NCBI RefSeq assembly: GCF_021491915.1
Contig: NZ_CP090836.1
Location: forward strand, 1,598,501 to 1,662,500
Length of the DNA stretch: 64,000 nucleotides
Direction of reading: 5' to 3'
From: Paracoccus everestensis
Lineage (GTDB): Bacteria > Pseudomonadota > Alphaproteobacteria > Rhodobacterales > Rhodobacteraceae
Part shown: positions 48,853 to 54,620 of the stretch, one piece after another
Layout: every line of letters begins with the position of its first letter
Numbering within the stretch: the stretch's first letter is position 1
Program-made: the position numbers and the translations under genes
Notes under the pieces: model-generated
The model's input: the letters and a program-made list of their open reading frames with translations, nothing else
What the model was told of the DNA's origin: nothing
The model's database searches: none

Positions 48853-49171
48853 CTTTACCTGCACTAGCACTTGGAAAAAATATGCCCCCGAAACACCGAA
48901 GGCGGACACCGATAACAAGACTGACGTTAGCATTTCCGCGAGCGGGTTAATATGCACAAAGTTTGATTTAATTGGGTTAATGACCTGACATTTTGGATAG
49001 GCTGCGACCCGATACTGCCGGAAGGCGACCTGAGGCGCCGCGAATCGCCATTCGTGACGGGTCCACACGGGACTGTGCATTTTTCAGCCGAGGTTCGGTT
49101 GAACTGCGCCGCGTTCCGCCTATGCTGCACTGCGACATACCCGCCTTAACAGGCCTAGGGAAGGAAGCGCC
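48853..49171. other. Divergent promoter region of sugar transferase and telA
   Basis: These 319 bases have no supported gene. The part near 48890-49000 is the most AT-rich in the neighbourhood. It contains GGGTTAAT twice (48944-48951 and 48974-48981), exactly 30 bp apart, and one further TTAA at 48968. The rest, towards telA, is GC-rich with GGAAGGAAG just before the telA ATG. Confidence 0.5.
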
Positions 49172-50344
49172 ATGACCGACGAGACCCGCCGCCGCGCCGA
49201 AGACATCCGCACCGAAATCGAAACGGTGATTTCGGCACCCTTGCCCCAGCCCAAGGATGAACCGGTGTCGGTCCGTACGGCGGACCCCCAGCTTGCCGCC
49301 GAGATCCGCCGCCGCATGGACGAGATCGACCTGACCGATTCAGGATCCATTGTCCGGTTTGGCACCCGTGCGCAGGCGGGCTTGCAGGAAATCAGCCAGA
49401 AGATGCTGGCCGACGTGAAAAGCAAGGACGTCGGTCCGGCAGGCGAAAGCCTGCGCGGCATCGTGACCACGATCCGGGGATTTTCCACCAGCGAACTGGA
49501 CATGCGCCGGACGCGAAGCTGGTGGGAAAAGCTGCTGGGCCGATCGGCGCCCTTTGCCAAGTTCGTGGCGAATTACGAACAGGTCCAGACCCAGATCGAC
49601 CGCATCACCGTGGAGTTGGAACGGCACGAGCAAACCTTGCTGAAGGACATCAAGGCGCTGGACCTGCTGTATGACCATACGCTGAACTTCTATGACGAAC
49701 TCGCCCTGTATATTGCCGCGGGCGAGGAGAAGTTGCAGGAACTGGACAGCACGGCGATCCCCGAAATGGAAGCGCGCGTAAAGGCCGTCCCCGAGGATGA
49801 CCAGGTCATGCAGGCCCAGGCCCTGCGCGACCTGCGGGCCGTCCGCGACGATCTGGAACGCCGCGTTCACGACCTGAAGCTGACGCGGCAGGTGACGATG
49901 CAGTCGTTGCCCTCGATCCGGCTGGTTCAGGAAAACGACAAGTCCCTGGTCACCAAGATCAACTCGACCCTGGTGAACACGGTGCCGCTGTGGGAAACCC
50001 AGCTTGCCCAGGCGGTGACCATCCAACGCAGCGCCGAGGCGGCGCGCGCCGTCAAGGAGGCCAGCGACCTGACCAATGACCTGCTGACCCGCAATGCCGA
50101 CAACCTGCGCCAGGCGAACGTCCAGATCCGCACCCAGACCGAACGCGGCGTGTTCGACATCAATTCGGTCAAGGCGGCCAACGCCCAGCTGATCGCCACC
50201 ATCGAGGACAGCCTGCGCATTGCCGACGAGGGCCGCGCCCGCCGCGCCGCCGCCGAAAGCGACCTGACCAAGATGGAGGCCGATCTGCGCGACACCCTGG
50301 CTCGCGCAACAGCCCAGCGGCAGGGGGCGCCGGCCCGGACATGA
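49172..50344 (+). CDS. TelA family protein (toxic anion resistance family)
   Basis: A 390-residue soluble protein of the TelA/KlaA/YaaN family, named after plasmid tellurite resistance. The biochemical role is unknown. It is nearly all helical, with long coiled-coil stretches (about 125-245 and 290-385), and carries the family core SWWEKLLGRS...NYEQVQTQID and QSLPSIRLVQENDKSLVTKINSTLVNTVPLWETQLAQAV. AAGGAAG lies before the ATG. It is the first gene of a four-gene unit and overlaps the lipoprotein gene by 4 bp. Confidence 0.92.
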   Translation: MTDETRRRAEDIRTEIETVISAPLPQPKDEPVSVRTADPQLAAEIRRRMDEIDLTDSGSIVRFGTRAQAGLQEISQKMLADVKSKDVGPAGESLRGIVTTIRGFSTSELDMRRTRSWWEKLLGRSAPFAKFVANYEQVQTQIDRITVELERHEQTLLKDIKALDLLYDHTLNFYDELALYIAAGEEKLQELDSTAIPEMEARVKAVPEDDQVMQAQALRDLRAVRDDLERRVHDLKLTRQVTMQSLPSIRLVQENDKSLVTKINSTLVNTVPLWETQLAQAVTIQRSAEAARAVKEASDLTNDLLTRNADNLRQANVQIRTQTERGVFDINSVKAANAQLIATIEDSLRIADEGRARRAAAESDLTKMEADLRDTLARATAQRQGAPART

Positions 50345-51369
50345 TGCAGAAGACAACCGGTTTCCGGCGCAGCCTGCCCCTGCTGGGGCTGCTGGCCTTG
50401 GCCGCCTGCCAGGCACCTGACCCCGCGCCGCGACCGGTTCCCGCGCCCCGCCCGCAGGCGCGTCCCGAAAACACCGGCCCGTCGCAGGAGGAGTTGCGCA
50501 AGGCCCGCGCCGAACGCAACCGTGCCGCCAATATCGCTGCGTCACAGGCGCTGACCAAGGCCAGCCTTGCCAGCAACGCGCAGCGGGATTTCTATGCCCG
50601 CGCCGAACGCGCGCTGCGCGATGGGGGACGCTTGCGCCGTGACCGGGTTCCGCTGGATGCGCCCATCGACGCGGACACCTTGACCCGCAACTTTATCGCC
50701 ATCGCCCTGCGCGACGAATATGGCGCGGGCGGAATGCAGGCAAATGGCGGTGGCGCGCCTGCCCCCCTGCGCCGCTGGCAGGAACCGGTGCGGGTGCAGC
50801 TGGAATTCGGGGCGGTCGTGGATGTGGCCACCCGCCGCGCTTATCGGGTCGAGGTCAGCCAGTTTGCCGAGCGCCTGGCGCAGGCGACCGGGAATGGCGT
50901 GTCGCTGACCGACAGCGGCGGCAATTTCATCGTTCTGGTGCTGTCCGACGACGAACGCCGTGCCGTCGGTTCGCGGCTGGCGCAGCTGGTGCCAGGGATA
51001 CCGCCACAGGACATCGCCGTCATGCAGGCCCTGGACGCAGACAATTTCTGCACCGTCTTTGCCTATTCGCGCGGAGCCTCGCCGGTTTATTCGAATGCCG
51101 TCGCGCTGATCCGCGCCGAACTGCCCCCGCTGTTGCAGACCTCTTGCATCCACGAGGAACTGGCCCAGGGCATGGGTCTTGCCAATGACAGCCCCGCCGC
51201 CCGCCCCTCGGTCTTCAACGACGATGAAGAATTCGCCCTGCTGACCCGGCATGACGAGTTGCTGCTGCGGATCCTTTACGATCCCCGGCTGCGCCCCGGG
51301 ATGTCCGCGGCCGAGGCCGAACCCATCGTCCGCCAGATCGCGACGGAACTCGTGGCGCAAAGCATCTGA
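50341..51369 (+). CDS. DUF2927 lipoprotein
   Basis: A 342-residue lipoprotein with a signal peptide ending in the lipobox LALAAC (Cys23), then a Pro-rich linker (about 27-45). The DUF2927 domain follows (about 110-330): LTRNFIAIALRDEY, WQEPVRVQLEFG, and the CIHEELAQGMGLANDSP motif. The HEE in this motif looks like the HExxQ-type metal site of putative zinc peptidases, an inference. Translational coupling to telA links a periplasmic or outer-membrane protein with a cytosolic one. Confidence 0.85.
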   Translation: MMQKTTGFRRSLPLLGLLALAACQAPDPAPRPVPAPRPQARPENTGPSQEELRKARAERNRAANIAASQALTKASLASNAQRDFYARAERALRDGGRLRRDRVPLDAPIDADTLTRNFIAIALRDEYGAGGMQANGGGAPAPLRRWQEPVRVQLEFGAVVDVATRRAYRVEVSQFAERLAQATGNGVSLTDSGGNFIVLVLSDDERRAVGSRLAQLVPGIPPQDIAVMQALDADNFCTVFAYSRGASPVYSNAVALIRAELPPLLQTSCIHEELAQGMGLANDSPAARPSVFNDDEEFALLTRHDELLLRILYDPRLRPGMSAAEAEPIVRQIATELVAQSI

Positions 51370-51426
51370 CTTGCGCCGCCACCGCGCTTGGCCGCATAAA
51401 AGACACGACATCCTGCGGAGGGAAAG

Positions 51427-52539
51427 ATGGCGATCTTCGACATTCTCGGCGGCGAGTTCATCGAGGTCATCGAATGGACGGACGATACGCGCGACACGAT
51501 GGTCTGGCGCTATCCGACCGTCGGCAACGCGATCAAATACGGCGCCAAGCTGACCGTTCGCGAAGGCCAGGCCGCTGTTTTCATCCATGAAGGCCAACTG
51601 GCCGATACCTTCGGGCCCGGCCTTTATATGCTGGAAACCAACAACCTGCCGATCCTGACCCGGTTGCAGCACTGGGACCACGGTTTTCGCAGCCCCTTCA
51701 AGTCCGAGATCTATTTCATCAGCACCACCCGCTTCAACGACCTGAAATGGGGCACCAAGAATCCGGTCATGACGCGCGATGCGGAATTCGGTCCCGTGCG
51801 CCTGCGCGCCTTTGGCACCTATTCCCTGCGCGTCACCGACCCCGCCCGCTTCATGACGGAAATCGTCGGCACCGACGGTGAATTCACCAGTGACGAGATC
51901 ACGTTCCAGATCCGCAATGTCATCACCCAGGAATTTTCCCGCGTCATCGCCGGGTCGGGAATTCCGGTGCTGGACATGGCGGCCAATACCGGCGACCTGG
52001 GCCGGCTGATAGCCCAGGCGATTGAACCCACAATCGCAGCCTATGGCCTGTCAATTCCAGAATTCTATATTGAGAACATCAGCCTTCCGCAGGAAGTCGA
52101 GAAGATGCTGGACAAGCGCACCTCGATGGGAATTTTGGGCGACCTGGACCGCTTTGGTCAATATGCAGCGTCCGAGGCGATGCTGAATGCCAGCCAGAAC
52201 CCTGGTTCCGCAGGGGCGGGCATGGGGGCCGCCATGGGCGCGGTGCTTGGCGCGGGAATGGCAAACCGGCCCGCGCAAGGGCCATGGGGCAGCATTCCGC
52301 AGGGCGGCGCCACGCCGCCGCCATTGCCCGGACAGGCCCAGCCGGTCTGGCACGTTGCCCTGAACGGCAAATCCGAAGGACCATTCGACCGCGCCGGGCT
52401 GGAGCGCTTGGCAACCGAGGGACGGTTCATGCACGAAACGCTGGTCTGGGCACCCGGCCAGGACGGCTGGCGCAAGGCAGGCGAGATCCCGGAATTGGCG
52501 GCGTTGTTCCCCACCATGCCGCCGCCCTTGCCGGGCTGA
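51427..52539 (+). CDS. SPFH domain protein with C-terminal GYF_2 domain (YdjI-like)
   Basis: A 370-residue protein. The first part (about 1-265) is the SPFH/stomatin-like domain of the YdjI type: MAIFDILGGEFIEVIEW, then VREGQAAVFIHEGQLADTFGPGLYML, PFKSEIYFISTTRF and EVEKMLDKRTSMGILGDLDRFGQYA. A Gly/Ala/Pro linker (about 265-308) leads to a GYF_2 (DUF4339) domain: WHVALNGKSEGPF and LVWAPGQDGWRKAGEI. Bacillus YdjI carries a zinc ribbon in that place. Such proteins form membrane-bound rings. GGAGGG precedes the ATG. It lies 7 nt before the zinc-ribbon gene. Confidence 0.9.
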   Translation: MAIFDILGGEFIEVIEWTDDTRDTMVWRYPTVGNAIKYGAKLTVREGQAAVFIHEGQLADTFGPGLYMLETNNLPILTRLQHWDHGFRSPFKSEIYFISTTRFNDLKWGTKNPVMTRDAEFGPVRLRAFGTYSLRVTDPARFMTEIVGTDGEFTSDEITFQIRNVITQEFSRVIAGSGIPVLDMAANTGDLGRLIAQAIEPTIAAYGLSIPEFYIENISLPQEVEKMLDKRTSMGILGDLDRFGQYAASEAMLNASQNPGSAGAGMGAAMGAVLGAGMANRPAQGPWGSIPQGGATPPPLPGQAQPVWHVALNGKSEGPFDRAGLERLATEGRFMHETLVWAPGQDGWRKAGEIPELAALFPTMPPPLPG

Positions 52540-52546
52540 CCGCCTT

Positions 52547-53806
52547 ATGCCCACGCTACAGGCCGAACACCGATACCCCTGCGAGCAATGCGGGGCAAGC
52601 CTGCGCTTTCAGCCGGGCCAGCAGGTGCTGGTCTGCGACTGGTGTGGGCACCGCCAGGCCATCGGCTCCGGTCCCGCCCGCGCGCCTGCGCGCCAGACCC
52701 AGGGCGGGCCCGAGGGCGAGGACGCGATCCTTGCCGATCCGAAAACCGGCAGGGCCTTGCAGTGGGACGCGGGCCACAAATCGCTTGATCTGGTCGAAAT
52801 CCCTCTGGACCAAGGCCTGCGGCTGGAGGCCGGATCCGAGCTGGCCGAGACCGTCCGTCTGCTGTCCTGCCCCAATTGCGGCGCCCAGATCGAGTTGGGG
52901 GATACCACCCATGCCAGTGCCTGCCCCTTTTGTGCCACGCCGGTTGTCACCGACACCGGGACCAGCCGCAAGATCAAGCCGCAAGGCGTGCTGCCCTTTC
53001 GCCTGACCGAGGATCAGGCGCACCGGGCGATGCAGGATTGGCTGGGCAACCTGTGGTTCGCGCCATCGGGCCTGACCGCCTATGCCCGCCGGGGGCGAAG
53101 GATGCGCGGAATCTATTCCCCTTATTGGACCTTCGACGCGCGCACGCGGTCTGCCTATGCCGGACAGCGGGGCGATTACTATTACGAAACCGTTTGGGTC
53201 ACCCAGCAGGTCAATGGCCGCAACCAGCAGGTGGCGCGGCAAGTCAGGCGCACAAGATGGCGCCCCGCGTCGGGCCGTGTGGCACGTGATTTCAACGATG
53301 TTCTGGTGCTTGCCTCGGCATCACTGCCGCGCAAATTCGTGGATGCGCTGACGCCTTGGGATCTGTCCCACCTGCGCCCGTATCGCCCTGATTATCTGGC
53401 TGGCCTGGAGTCCGAAGCCTATACGATCCCCTTGGCAGACGGGCACAAGACGGCGCGGGCTGAAATGGCAGGGGTGATCCTGAACGATGCCCGCCGCGAC
53501 ATCGGCGGCGACGAACAGCGCGTCGATCACATTCAGACAGACCATGCGGACGAGACATTCAAGCATGTCCTGCTGCCGGTCTGGTCGGCAGCTTATCGTT
53601 ACAATGGCAAGAGCTATCGTTTTGTGGTCAACGGCCAGTCCGGCCGCGTCATGGGCGAACGGCCCTGGTCAGCGTGGAAGATTGCAGCCGCAGTAATCGC
53701 GGCCTTGATCGCGTTGGCGGCTTTTTTCTATCTGGCAGAGGCAGGGGGCTATATCGATATGGGCGCTGCGCTTCGGGATGCCGGACCGGTCATCCAAGGC
53801 TTCTGA
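52547..53806 (+). CDS. Double zinc-ribbon protein with C-terminal membrane anchor (YdjG-like)
   Basis: A 419-residue protein with two zinc ribbons at the N-terminus: Cys12, 15, 30, 33 and Cys108, 111, 126, 129, each CxxC...CxxC. A large middle region (about 150-370) contains YSPYWTFDARTRSAYAGQRGDYYYET and a second similar half ending in LLPVWSAAYRYNGKSYRFVVNGQSGRVMGERP. One transmembrane helix follows at about 378-398 (IAAAVIAALIALAAFFYLA). Database names such as primosomal protein N' for this family are misleading. The layout recalls Bacillus YdjG. Last gene of the telA unit. Confidence 0.85.
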   Translation: MPTLQAEHRYPCEQCGASLRFQPGQQVLVCDWCGHRQAIGSGPARAPARQTQGGPEGEDAILADPKTGRALQWDAGHKSLDLVEIPLDQGLRLEAGSELAETVRLLSCPNCGAQIELGDTTHASACPFCATPVVTDTGTSRKIKPQGVLPFRLTEDQAHRAMQDWLGNLWFAPSGLTAYARRGRRMRGIYSPYWTFDARTRSAYAGQRGDYYYETVWVTQQVNGRNQQVARQVRRTRWRPASGRVARDFNDVLVLASASLPRKFVDALTPWDLSHLRPYRPDYLAGLESEAYTIPLADGHKTARAEMAGVILNDARRDIGGDEQRVDHIQTDHADETFKHVLLPVWSAAYRYNGKSYRFVVNGQSGRVMGERPWSAWKIAAAVIAALIALAAFFYLAEAGGYIDMGAALRDAGPVIQGF

Positions 53807-53866: not shown

Positions 53867-54412
53867 TCAGGCGGCGCGGCGGCGGCGCAGCAGGGCAAAG
53901 CCGGCCATTCCCGCAGCAAGAAACGGCATGGTCGCAGGCAGCGGCACAGGCGCCACGGCCACGTCAAAGCTCATCGTGCTGCCGTCAACATAGCTCACGC
54001 CCGGCCAGGTGATGAACAGATTGCCAGCGTCGAAACTGGTTCCGAACGGCGCGATCGAACCACCCGTATGCGAGAAGCCGGTGAATGCGGTGCCCGACAG
54101 CAGCGAGATCTGGAGTCCGTTGAAGGGCGTGCTTTCCCAAGTCGGATTGGTCAACGTCGTGTTGAACGTGACCGTGAGGGCGTTCGCGGCAAAGTCCAGC
54201 AGGATATCGGTGACGCCCTCGACGCTGATGGTGGCATCGATGCCTGCCCCGACCGTGAACGGACCCGTTTCAGTCGCTTCCGGATAGACCGTTCCGGCAT
54301 CGGGATAAAGATAGACGGCCGACAGGGTCATTCCGTCCAGCGTCGCGGCCCTGGCCTCTGGCGCCGCCAGGGCGGCAAGGGCGATAAGGGCGGCACCTGC
54401 ATAGTTCAACAT
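53867..54412 (-). CDS. VPLPA-CTERM sorting domain protein
   Basis: An exported surface or extracellular protein of 181 residues. An N-terminal signal peptide (MLNYAGAALIALAALAAPEARA) and a tripartite C-terminal sorting signal are plain: APVPLPATMPF, a hydrophobic helix, then LLRRRRAA. This signal is cut by a dedicated exosortase (XrtD type) in Rhodobacteraceae. The part between is a beta-rich domain poor in Cys, with many Thr, Gly and Phe. The exosortase gene is not in the window. The ATG at 54412 is followed by a proper signal; longer frames are not. Confidence 0.85.
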   Translation of the reverse strand: MLNYAGAALIALAALAAPEARAATLDGMTLSAVYLYPDAGTVYPEATETGPFTVGAGIDATISVEGVTDILLDFAANALTVTFNTTLTNPTWESTPFNGLQISLLSGTAFTGFSHTGGSIAPFGTSFDAGNLFITWPGVSYVDGSTMSFDVAVAPVPLPATMPFLAAGMAGFALLRRRRAA

Positions 54413-54620
54413 CTCACTCTCCACGATACAGACTGGGATGAACCTTGCCTGCATCGCAGCTTTGGCCCTAAGTAAATTTCCGCGGCCTGTCCAAAAAAGC
54501 AGGTGCAACAGCAACCGCAGGACGAGACCGGAATCCTGGATGAAACCATCGCGTTCATGCACGCCGGAACCGCGTATCATCCGCGCAACCTGTCAGCCCA
54601 TATCGCAATACGAGGCTTAA

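Follow-up and report, generated by a model that had tools for sequence, protein, structure and literature searches.

The window analyzed here is a 64,000-nucleotide stretch of the Paracoccus everestensis genome (G000, a single 2.96-Mb contig). Four open reading frames (ORFs), all on the + strand, span its positions 49172–53806 and encode a TelA protein, a DUF2927 lipoprotein, an SPFH protein with a GYF_2 domain, and a double zinc-ribbon membrane protein, called gene 4 below. Judging from the sequences, we somewhat favor the reading that these genes form a module for envelope stress (membrane surveillance) of the phage shock protein (PSP)/YdjG–YdjI type, in which XpaC and TelA would take the place that PspA has in Bacillus. 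We base this reading on the conserved gene order, the link to XpaC, the occurrence of gene 4 in the place of YdjG, and the sigmaW regulon shared by the Bacillus counterparts. It also draws on the joint absence of TelA, SPFH, and XpaC from one genome and the presence of TelA in all nine alphaproteobacteria with a high-scoring Band_7_1 match, as well as on the raised xpaC and telA levels in Lactococcus and Listeria, the dependence of YdjI on YdjG and YdjH, and the predicted fold and motif of DUF2927. The protein families, gene order, common strand, membrane helix, lipobox, and XpaC link were established from sequence or conservation. The features are as follows.

49172–50344, + strand: TelA (PF05816), 390 aa (Pfam, E 1.4e-106)
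50341–51369, + strand: DUF2927 lipoprotein (PF11150), 342 aa (Pfam, E 2.9e-58)
51427–52539, + strand: SPFH protein, 370 aa (Pfam, Band_7_1 E 1.3e-101, GYF_2 E 1.6e-17)
52547–53806, + strand: YdjG-like double zinc-ribbon protein (gene 4), 419 aa (alignment, hydropathy, relatives in Bacillota PspA operons)
51154–51189, + strand: degenerate metal-site motif of DUF2927 (alignments)
49099–49124, + strand: possible promoter block TTGAAC-14 nt-CCTATG, 5' of TelA (alignment)

The first two ORFs overlap by 4 bases, and the following gaps measure 57 nt and 7 nt. A preliminary description of the window, made without database searches, had given the same four + strand genes with this overlap and these gaps, and the ORFs and Pfam matches confirmed it to the base.

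Conservation of the gene order and the link to XpaC

The order sample comprised 61 genomes, all of the window's genus or family, and TelA was present in 60 of them. Twenty of these 60 loci were fetched, one per genus, covering 20 of 37 genera. TelA and SPFH share a strand in all 20, with SPFH downstream; a DUF2927 gene separates the two in 19, 18 have the zinc-ribbon gene further downstream, and the full TelA-DUF2927-SPFH-zinc-ribbon order was found in 17. The unit is thus kept outside the genus, contrary to the first refuting condition named in the preliminary description, and the triad of TelA, SPFH, and zinc-ribbon genes recurs in alpha- and gammaproteobacterial loci. With the same succession of genes recurring in different genera and families, we regard the unit as more than a chance arrangement. 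The gap between the SPFH and zinc-ribbon genes exceeds 250 bp in 7 of the 18 loci. A cytochrome b561-like gene (PF01292) fills it in L034 (11897–12499) and L036 (12118–12645) according to Pfam, and a similar insert was seen by eye in L035, L042, and L044; this minority arrangement is possibly a redox link.

The preliminary description had presented the four genes as one unit. Their order indeed proved conserved, but the set is incomplete, since almost every order-sample relative outside the genus has XpaC next to TelA. XpaC (PF10112) is present in 60 of the 61 genomes. Comparison of coordinates put it upstream of TelA, and on the TelA strand, in 55 of these 60; the domain-to-domain gap is 184–247 bp in 54 genomes and 1055 bp in one. 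All five genomes in which XpaC does not adjoin TelA belong to the window's genus, and they are all that the sample contains of it. In P. everestensis, XpaC is encoded at C1:2558068-2558514 (ORF L172:5652-6638), about 0.91 Mb from TelA. By eye, it sits there between genes resembling lpxK and truA. Genome G011 is without TelA, XpaC, and the SPFH protein alike. Given this near-constant adjacency and the confinement of the exceptions to one genus, the ancestral operon of the family, as reconstructed from gene order, was probably XpaC-TelA-DUF2927-SPFH-zinc-ribbon.

TelA and XpaC take their names from tellurite and dye hydrolysis, and to our knowledge neither protein has an established mechanism. 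Their pairing resembles the xpaC-yaaN and xpaC-telA pairs of Firmicutes, in which the same two families occur. It differs in that the window's family adds a lipoprotein and the SPFH-zinc-ribbon pair after TelA, and in that TelA and XpaC are not neighbors in the five sampled genomes of the genus. According to passages in PMC3498285, pspA-ydjGHI and xpaC-yaaN (that is, XpaC-TelA) of B. subtilis are both sigmaW genes; two operons that are co-regulated in Bacillus are thus physically merged in the present arrangement. A transcriptome table for Lactococcus under membrane-protein overproduction (CesSR) lists xpaC and telA as raised (PMC3139573). In Listeria, a bacteriocin slightly raises both genes (log2 0.6), and a telA mutant cited in the same article showed a 4-fold nisin effect (sensitive) and a 2-fold tellurite effect; its authors describe their TelA protein as one of unknown mechanism (PMC12791056). 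A Paracoccus TelA protein was among those detected in a marine biofilm metaproteome, according to part of PMC11962581. Such a protein is therefore made, which says nothing of its role.

Relation of gene 4 to YdjG and the PSP system

Pfam gave zinc-ribbon matches alone for gene 4, all below the curated cut-off. Eight cysteines (12/15/30/33 and 108/111/126/129) are invariant in 14 aligned sequences, including that of the window, and hydropathy reveals one hydrophobic stretch, a C-terminal membrane helix at about residues 373–403. The double zinc ribbon with one membrane helix noted beforehand was thereby corroborated. In the Bacillota stretches L206 and L207, the gene-4 profile matches (195 and 194 bits, respectively) the gene between PspA (PF04012) and TPM. 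An SPFH gene comes after TPM in both, and in L206 its product ends in a C-terminal zinc ribbon. Gene-4 relatives above 100 bits occur in 6 of 18 stretches of the Bacillota sample (L201, L206, L207, L211, L212, and L216), among which the Pfam check for PspA covered L206 and L207. The same order, pspA-ydjG-ydjH-ydjI, is described in parts of PMC8581546, PMC9239133, and PMC11237479, the last of which also supplies the YdjG architecture of two zinc ribbons plus a membrane segment. Because its profile matches the gene in the YdjG place of the L206 and L207 PspA operons, gene 4 is YdjG-like by position and profile, the comparison running through these relatives and not through B. subtilis YdjG itself. 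This agrees with the earlier proposal of a membrane-associated module related to YdjG and YdjI.

For the B. subtilis system, passages in PMC8581546 report that YdjI has no predicted membrane segment, that its localization depends on YdjG plus YdjH, and that PspA in turn depends on YdjI; deletion of YdjG/H caused a cell-shape defect tied to the cell-wall machinery under alkaline shock. The window's unit shares with pspA-ydjGHI a Band_7_1 SPFH protein without a membrane helix, a two-zinc-ribbon membrane protein, and the form of a small same-strand operon. It differs in having TelA, the DUF2927 lipoprotein, and, in relatives, XpaC. The SPFH tail carries GYF_2 in the window protein but a zinc ribbon in L206. 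No TPM (YdjH) match was found in the four genes and the five flanking genes scanned, the rest of the genome not having been searched, and no PspA/IM30 (PF04012) match was found in the window genome.

No PspA was found in the four other genomes of the genus either, in line with the suggestion in the preliminary description that TelA replaces PspA as the effector. A strict replacement is weakened, however, by PspA matches in 22 of the 61 order-sample genomes, all 22 of them carrying TelA and XpaC besides, and by the occurrence of TelA in just 5 of 20 SPFH genomes outside the family, which were picked from the 80 scan loci described below, four of them for their adjacent TelA. The PspA-Band_7 and polyamine operons of Ravi et al. 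(2024) likewise combine a Band-7 partner with zinc ribbons in an envelope context; unlike the present unit, they are treated in a main text in which TelA and XpaC occur 0 times (PMC11237479). At L140:3759-5563, a small membrane protein and a spermidine-synthase-like gene were seen by eye just 5' of XpaC-TelA-SPFH-zinc-ribbon. These neighbors are reminiscent of the polyamine-PspA operons touched on in that article.

Co-occurrence and adjacency beyond the family

Among 190 alphaproteobacteria, TelA scored above the cut-off in 17 and Band_7_1 above 200 bits in 9, all 9 of which have TelA (hypergeometric 3e-11; 4e-9 when the window's family is counted once). Band_7_1 exceeded the cut-off in 22 genomes, of which the 13 scoring at most ~30 bits were treated as general SPFH proteins. 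TelA and SPFH are neighbors in seven of the nine. Loci L052-L055, from four other alphaproteobacterial families, have TelA-SPFH-zinc-ribbon without DUF2927, and XpaC was found 5' of TelA in L054, L055, L138, L140, L141, and L159. Neighbor listings were built from the longest ORFs, with genes named partly by eye; the fetched stretches L177 and L178 do not enter the results. By eye, TelA is followed by a solute-binding-type lipoprotein in L057, L062, and L067, from three alphaproteobacterial families, and the L057 neighborhood also contains an XpaC protein (PF10112). The DUF2927 gene of L067 lies some kb off TelA on the opposite strand.

A scan of GTDB species genomes with the SPFH alignment yielded at least 591 loci, of which the best 80 were analyzed, a set that spans many phyla and is biased to the query. 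More than 1.2 kb of sequence follows SPFH in 69 of these loci, and 50 of the 69 have a gene-4 relative above 100 bits; these relatives are on the SPFH strand, within ~1.4 kb after SPFH. TelA adjoins SPFH in 4 of the 80 loci, all gammaproteobacterial (L138, L140, L141, and L159; for L138, L141, and L159, we presume this class from the name of the group). XpaC-TelA-SPFH-zinc-ribbon is complete in L140, L141, and L159; in L138, little sequence remains on the contig beyond SPFH. A sample of 149 genomes from the phylum of a Clostridia genome has TelA in 16 and Band_7_1 in 15, and the two together in 9, against 1.6 expected. With adjacency in 4 of 80 scan loci and, on one contig, in 0 of 149 Clostridia-phylum genomes, we rejected the idea that TelA and SPFH are neighbors throughout the bacteria. 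As TelA adjacency is rare outside the family and the pairing with gene 4 is common, we take SPFH and the zinc-ribbon gene to be the older core, which XpaC-TelA would have joined in alpha- and gammaproteobacteria. DUF2927, seen within the TelA-SPFH gene order only in the window's family, appears to have been added there.

Predicted properties of TelA and the SPFH protein

TelA is predicted to be all-helical with a long antiparallel helix pair at residues 127–305 (model m390e175bca1f, mean pLDDT 71.8), and hydropathy gave no membrane helix. Its Foldseek and VIA matches are varied helical proteins, including ClyA-type toxins, BAR domains, dynamins, and axonemal and sensor proteins. With this moderately confident model as the query, the ESCRT-III/PspA fold was absent from the Foldseek top 50 and the 50 listed VIA matches. 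The search for PDB relatives by sequence returned nothing convincing for TelA, DUF2927, or gene 4.

The SPFH protein consists of Band_7_1 (residues 26–236), a polyproline linker, GYF_2 (308–357), and a polyproline C-terminal tail, again without a membrane helix by hydropathy. The YdjI-like SPFH protein with a C-terminal GYF_2 of the preliminary description was thus recovered by Pfam. In the PDB, the GYF part matches AgmX (7z3c, E 0.0011) by sequence. Of 26 SPFH sequences listed, 20 were flagged as having a polyproline linker ahead of GYF_2, five without a GYF anchor by the crude pattern being left out. By eye, PPP is present in all 26 listed tails; a narrower scripted tail pattern counts 9. 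As GYF domains bind polyproline, SPFH subunits might conceivably latch onto each other through GYF_2 and polyproline, which is a guess.

A degenerate metalloprotease fold in DUF2927

The DUF2927 protein has the lipobox LAAC with Cys23 and a CIHEE motif at residues 269–273, in agreement with the lipoprotein and HEE motif noted earlier. Residues ~118–316 are predicted to adopt a metzincin (matrix-metalloproteinase-like) fold. Its degenerate site, E272-E273-x-x-Q276-x-x-G279-x-x-N282-D283, aligns with the HExxH of distant family members, and the HExxHxxGxxH zinc-binding motif of active metzincins is absent from the window protein. EExxQ and ND are present in all 20 locus copies, including that of the window (L040 has V at the motif Gly). 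In contrast to metzincins, whose fold DUF2927 is predicted to share, the zinc ligands His-His-His are therefore swapped for Glu-Gln-Asn in every locus copy. Among 21 other family members, 4 have HExxH, 15 EExxQ, and 2 neither; for this motif table, 20 stretches were fetched, L193 and L196 gave no match with the profile, and L187 and L198, whose matching frame is a long merged ORF, are omitted. The uniform replacement in operon copies, together with the zinc motif kept in some distant members, suggests that a binding function was retained and that the site did not simply decay. The family would thereby gain a structure-based identity as a lipoprotein with a predicted metzincin fold.

An HExxHxxGF...H motif was seen in the distant DUF2927 proteins L192:398-1120, L194:445-1233, L194:1240-1971, and L195:336-1163, which, by their motif, are possibly active zinc peptidases. 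Genome G218 has seven DUF2927 matches, all within ~20 kb, forming a gene cluster at L190 (G218:C1:46000-57500).

Proposed function and alternatives

In the envelope-stress module that we favor, the zinc-ribbon protein would be an inner-membrane protein whose zinc ribbons lie in the cytosol, and it would anchor the SPFH protein, as YdjG plus YdjH anchor YdjI. The SPFH protein would oligomerize, its GYF_2 and polyproline arms clustering partners or other subunits. XpaC, encoded elsewhere in the window genome, may hold the long helical TelA at the membrane, and TelA would be recruited as a structural effector that stabilizes a damaged or over-fluid membrane. The DUF2927 lipoprotein, with its metalloprotease fold and a rebuilt site without zinc ligands, would serve as a periplasmic binding or sensing arm, not as a protease. 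More tentatively, and with slightly more doubt than confidence, we suggest that XpaC-TelA-SPFH-YdjG is a hybrid alpha- and gammaproteobacterial envelope-stress machine that fuses two Bacillus sigmaW operons and works without PspA, with TelA-XpaC as a PspA-like membrane effector. The window's family would have gained a periplasmic pseudo-metzincin arm, DUF2927, and a single operon would then both sense the periplasm and act at the inner membrane. The merger with the SPFH/YdjG pair would tie TelA and XpaC to membrane surveillance and, if true, account for the operation of a YdjG/YdjI module in bacteria that have no PspA.

Several observations weigh against the envelope-stress reading. Confidence in the TelA model is only moderate, and helical bundles commonly give fold matches of the level seen with it. 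The best Foldseek match of DUF2927 has an E of 9e-3, with none below 1e-3 and a TM-score to the query of ~0.3, and no PDB match was found for it by sequence. Within the family, L039 is without DUF2927, and L038 and L046 are without a zinc-ribbon gene in ~5 kb after SPFH. SPFH lies apart from TelA in G207 (different contigs) and G072 (far away), and of the 17 alphaproteobacterial genomes with TelA, 8 lack a Band_7_1 match scoring over 200 bits. TelA is absent from 15 of the 20 SPFH genomes outside the family, and the co-presence of PspA matches with TelA and XpaC described above points the same way. In the 149 Clostridia-phylum genomes, TelA and Band_7_1 were never neighbors on one contig; in G562, both lie near contig starts.

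The genes could instead encode a constitutive assembly or quality-control scaffold for respiratory or cell-wall envelope complexes, with SPFH as a chaperone-like ring, the zinc-ribbon protein as an anchor, and TelA as a filament. The near-universal TelA of the order sample would suit this, as would the cytochrome b561-like genes of several genera, the proposal in part of PMC11237479 that Band-7 proteins are assembly chaperones, and the YdjG/H shape defect under alkaline shock (PMC8581546). We nevertheless consider the scaffold unlikely, since the insert occurs in a minority of loci and the XpaC-TelA and YdjGHI relatives are stress-regulated in the Gram-positive reports cited. That XpaC-TelA-DUF2927 and SPFH-zinc-ribbon are unrelated sets merely side by side is improbable. 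SPFH-zinc-ribbon does occur without TelA in many phyla, and TelA without SPFH nearby exists as well, but short-gap adjacency is kept over alpha- and gammaproteobacteria, TelA and Band_7_1 co-occur strongly, and both are missing from G011. We regard an operon for resistance to tellurite or other toxic oxyanions as very improbable. The family name (PF05816, TelA) and the 2-fold tellurite effect in Listeria would speak for it, but the nisin effect in the same mutant is larger (PMC12791056), the partners of TelA are membrane scaffold proteins, and no Ter genes were detected among the five flanking genes scanned by Pfam, the remainder of the genome not having been searched for Ter. Anti-phage defence, also raised in the preliminary description, is extremely improbable: a study of jumbo phages (part of PMC7824862) assigns TelA to the components of Ter systems that lie beneath the membrane, which is an analogy only, whereas the sole PADLOC match (E 0.029) was to a type IV restriction enzyme model, and TelA and XpaC are each present in 60 of 61 genomes, unlike patchy defence islands.

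Overall, the interpretation given in the preliminary description is partly supported. It missed XpaC, the family-limited place of DUF2927 in the gene order, and the degenerate metalloprotease fold. A literature search that reached few subscription papers found neither the four-gene combination in print, nor TelA and YdjG as whole words in one paper, nor any paper on DUF2927. To us, the gene combination and the pseudo-metzincin are new, and the SPFH-YdjG core was already known.

Upstream region and flanking genes

In the TTGAAC-14 nt-CCTATG block before TelA, TTGA is kept in 5/5 genomes of the genus and TATG in 4/5. The block resembles heat-shock promoters. A heat-shock-like promoter is not claimed, as only 2 genera out of 19 others had a similar pattern 5' of XpaC, where shuffled sequences gave an expectation of 0.36. 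The four genes are flanked upstream by a WecG-type gene and a sugar transferase and downstream by genes for a VPLPA-CTERM protein and a PfkB kinase, none of which we count into the unit. The VPLPA-CTERM sorting-domain protein (TIGR03370) is encoded at 53867–54580, convergent to the operon.

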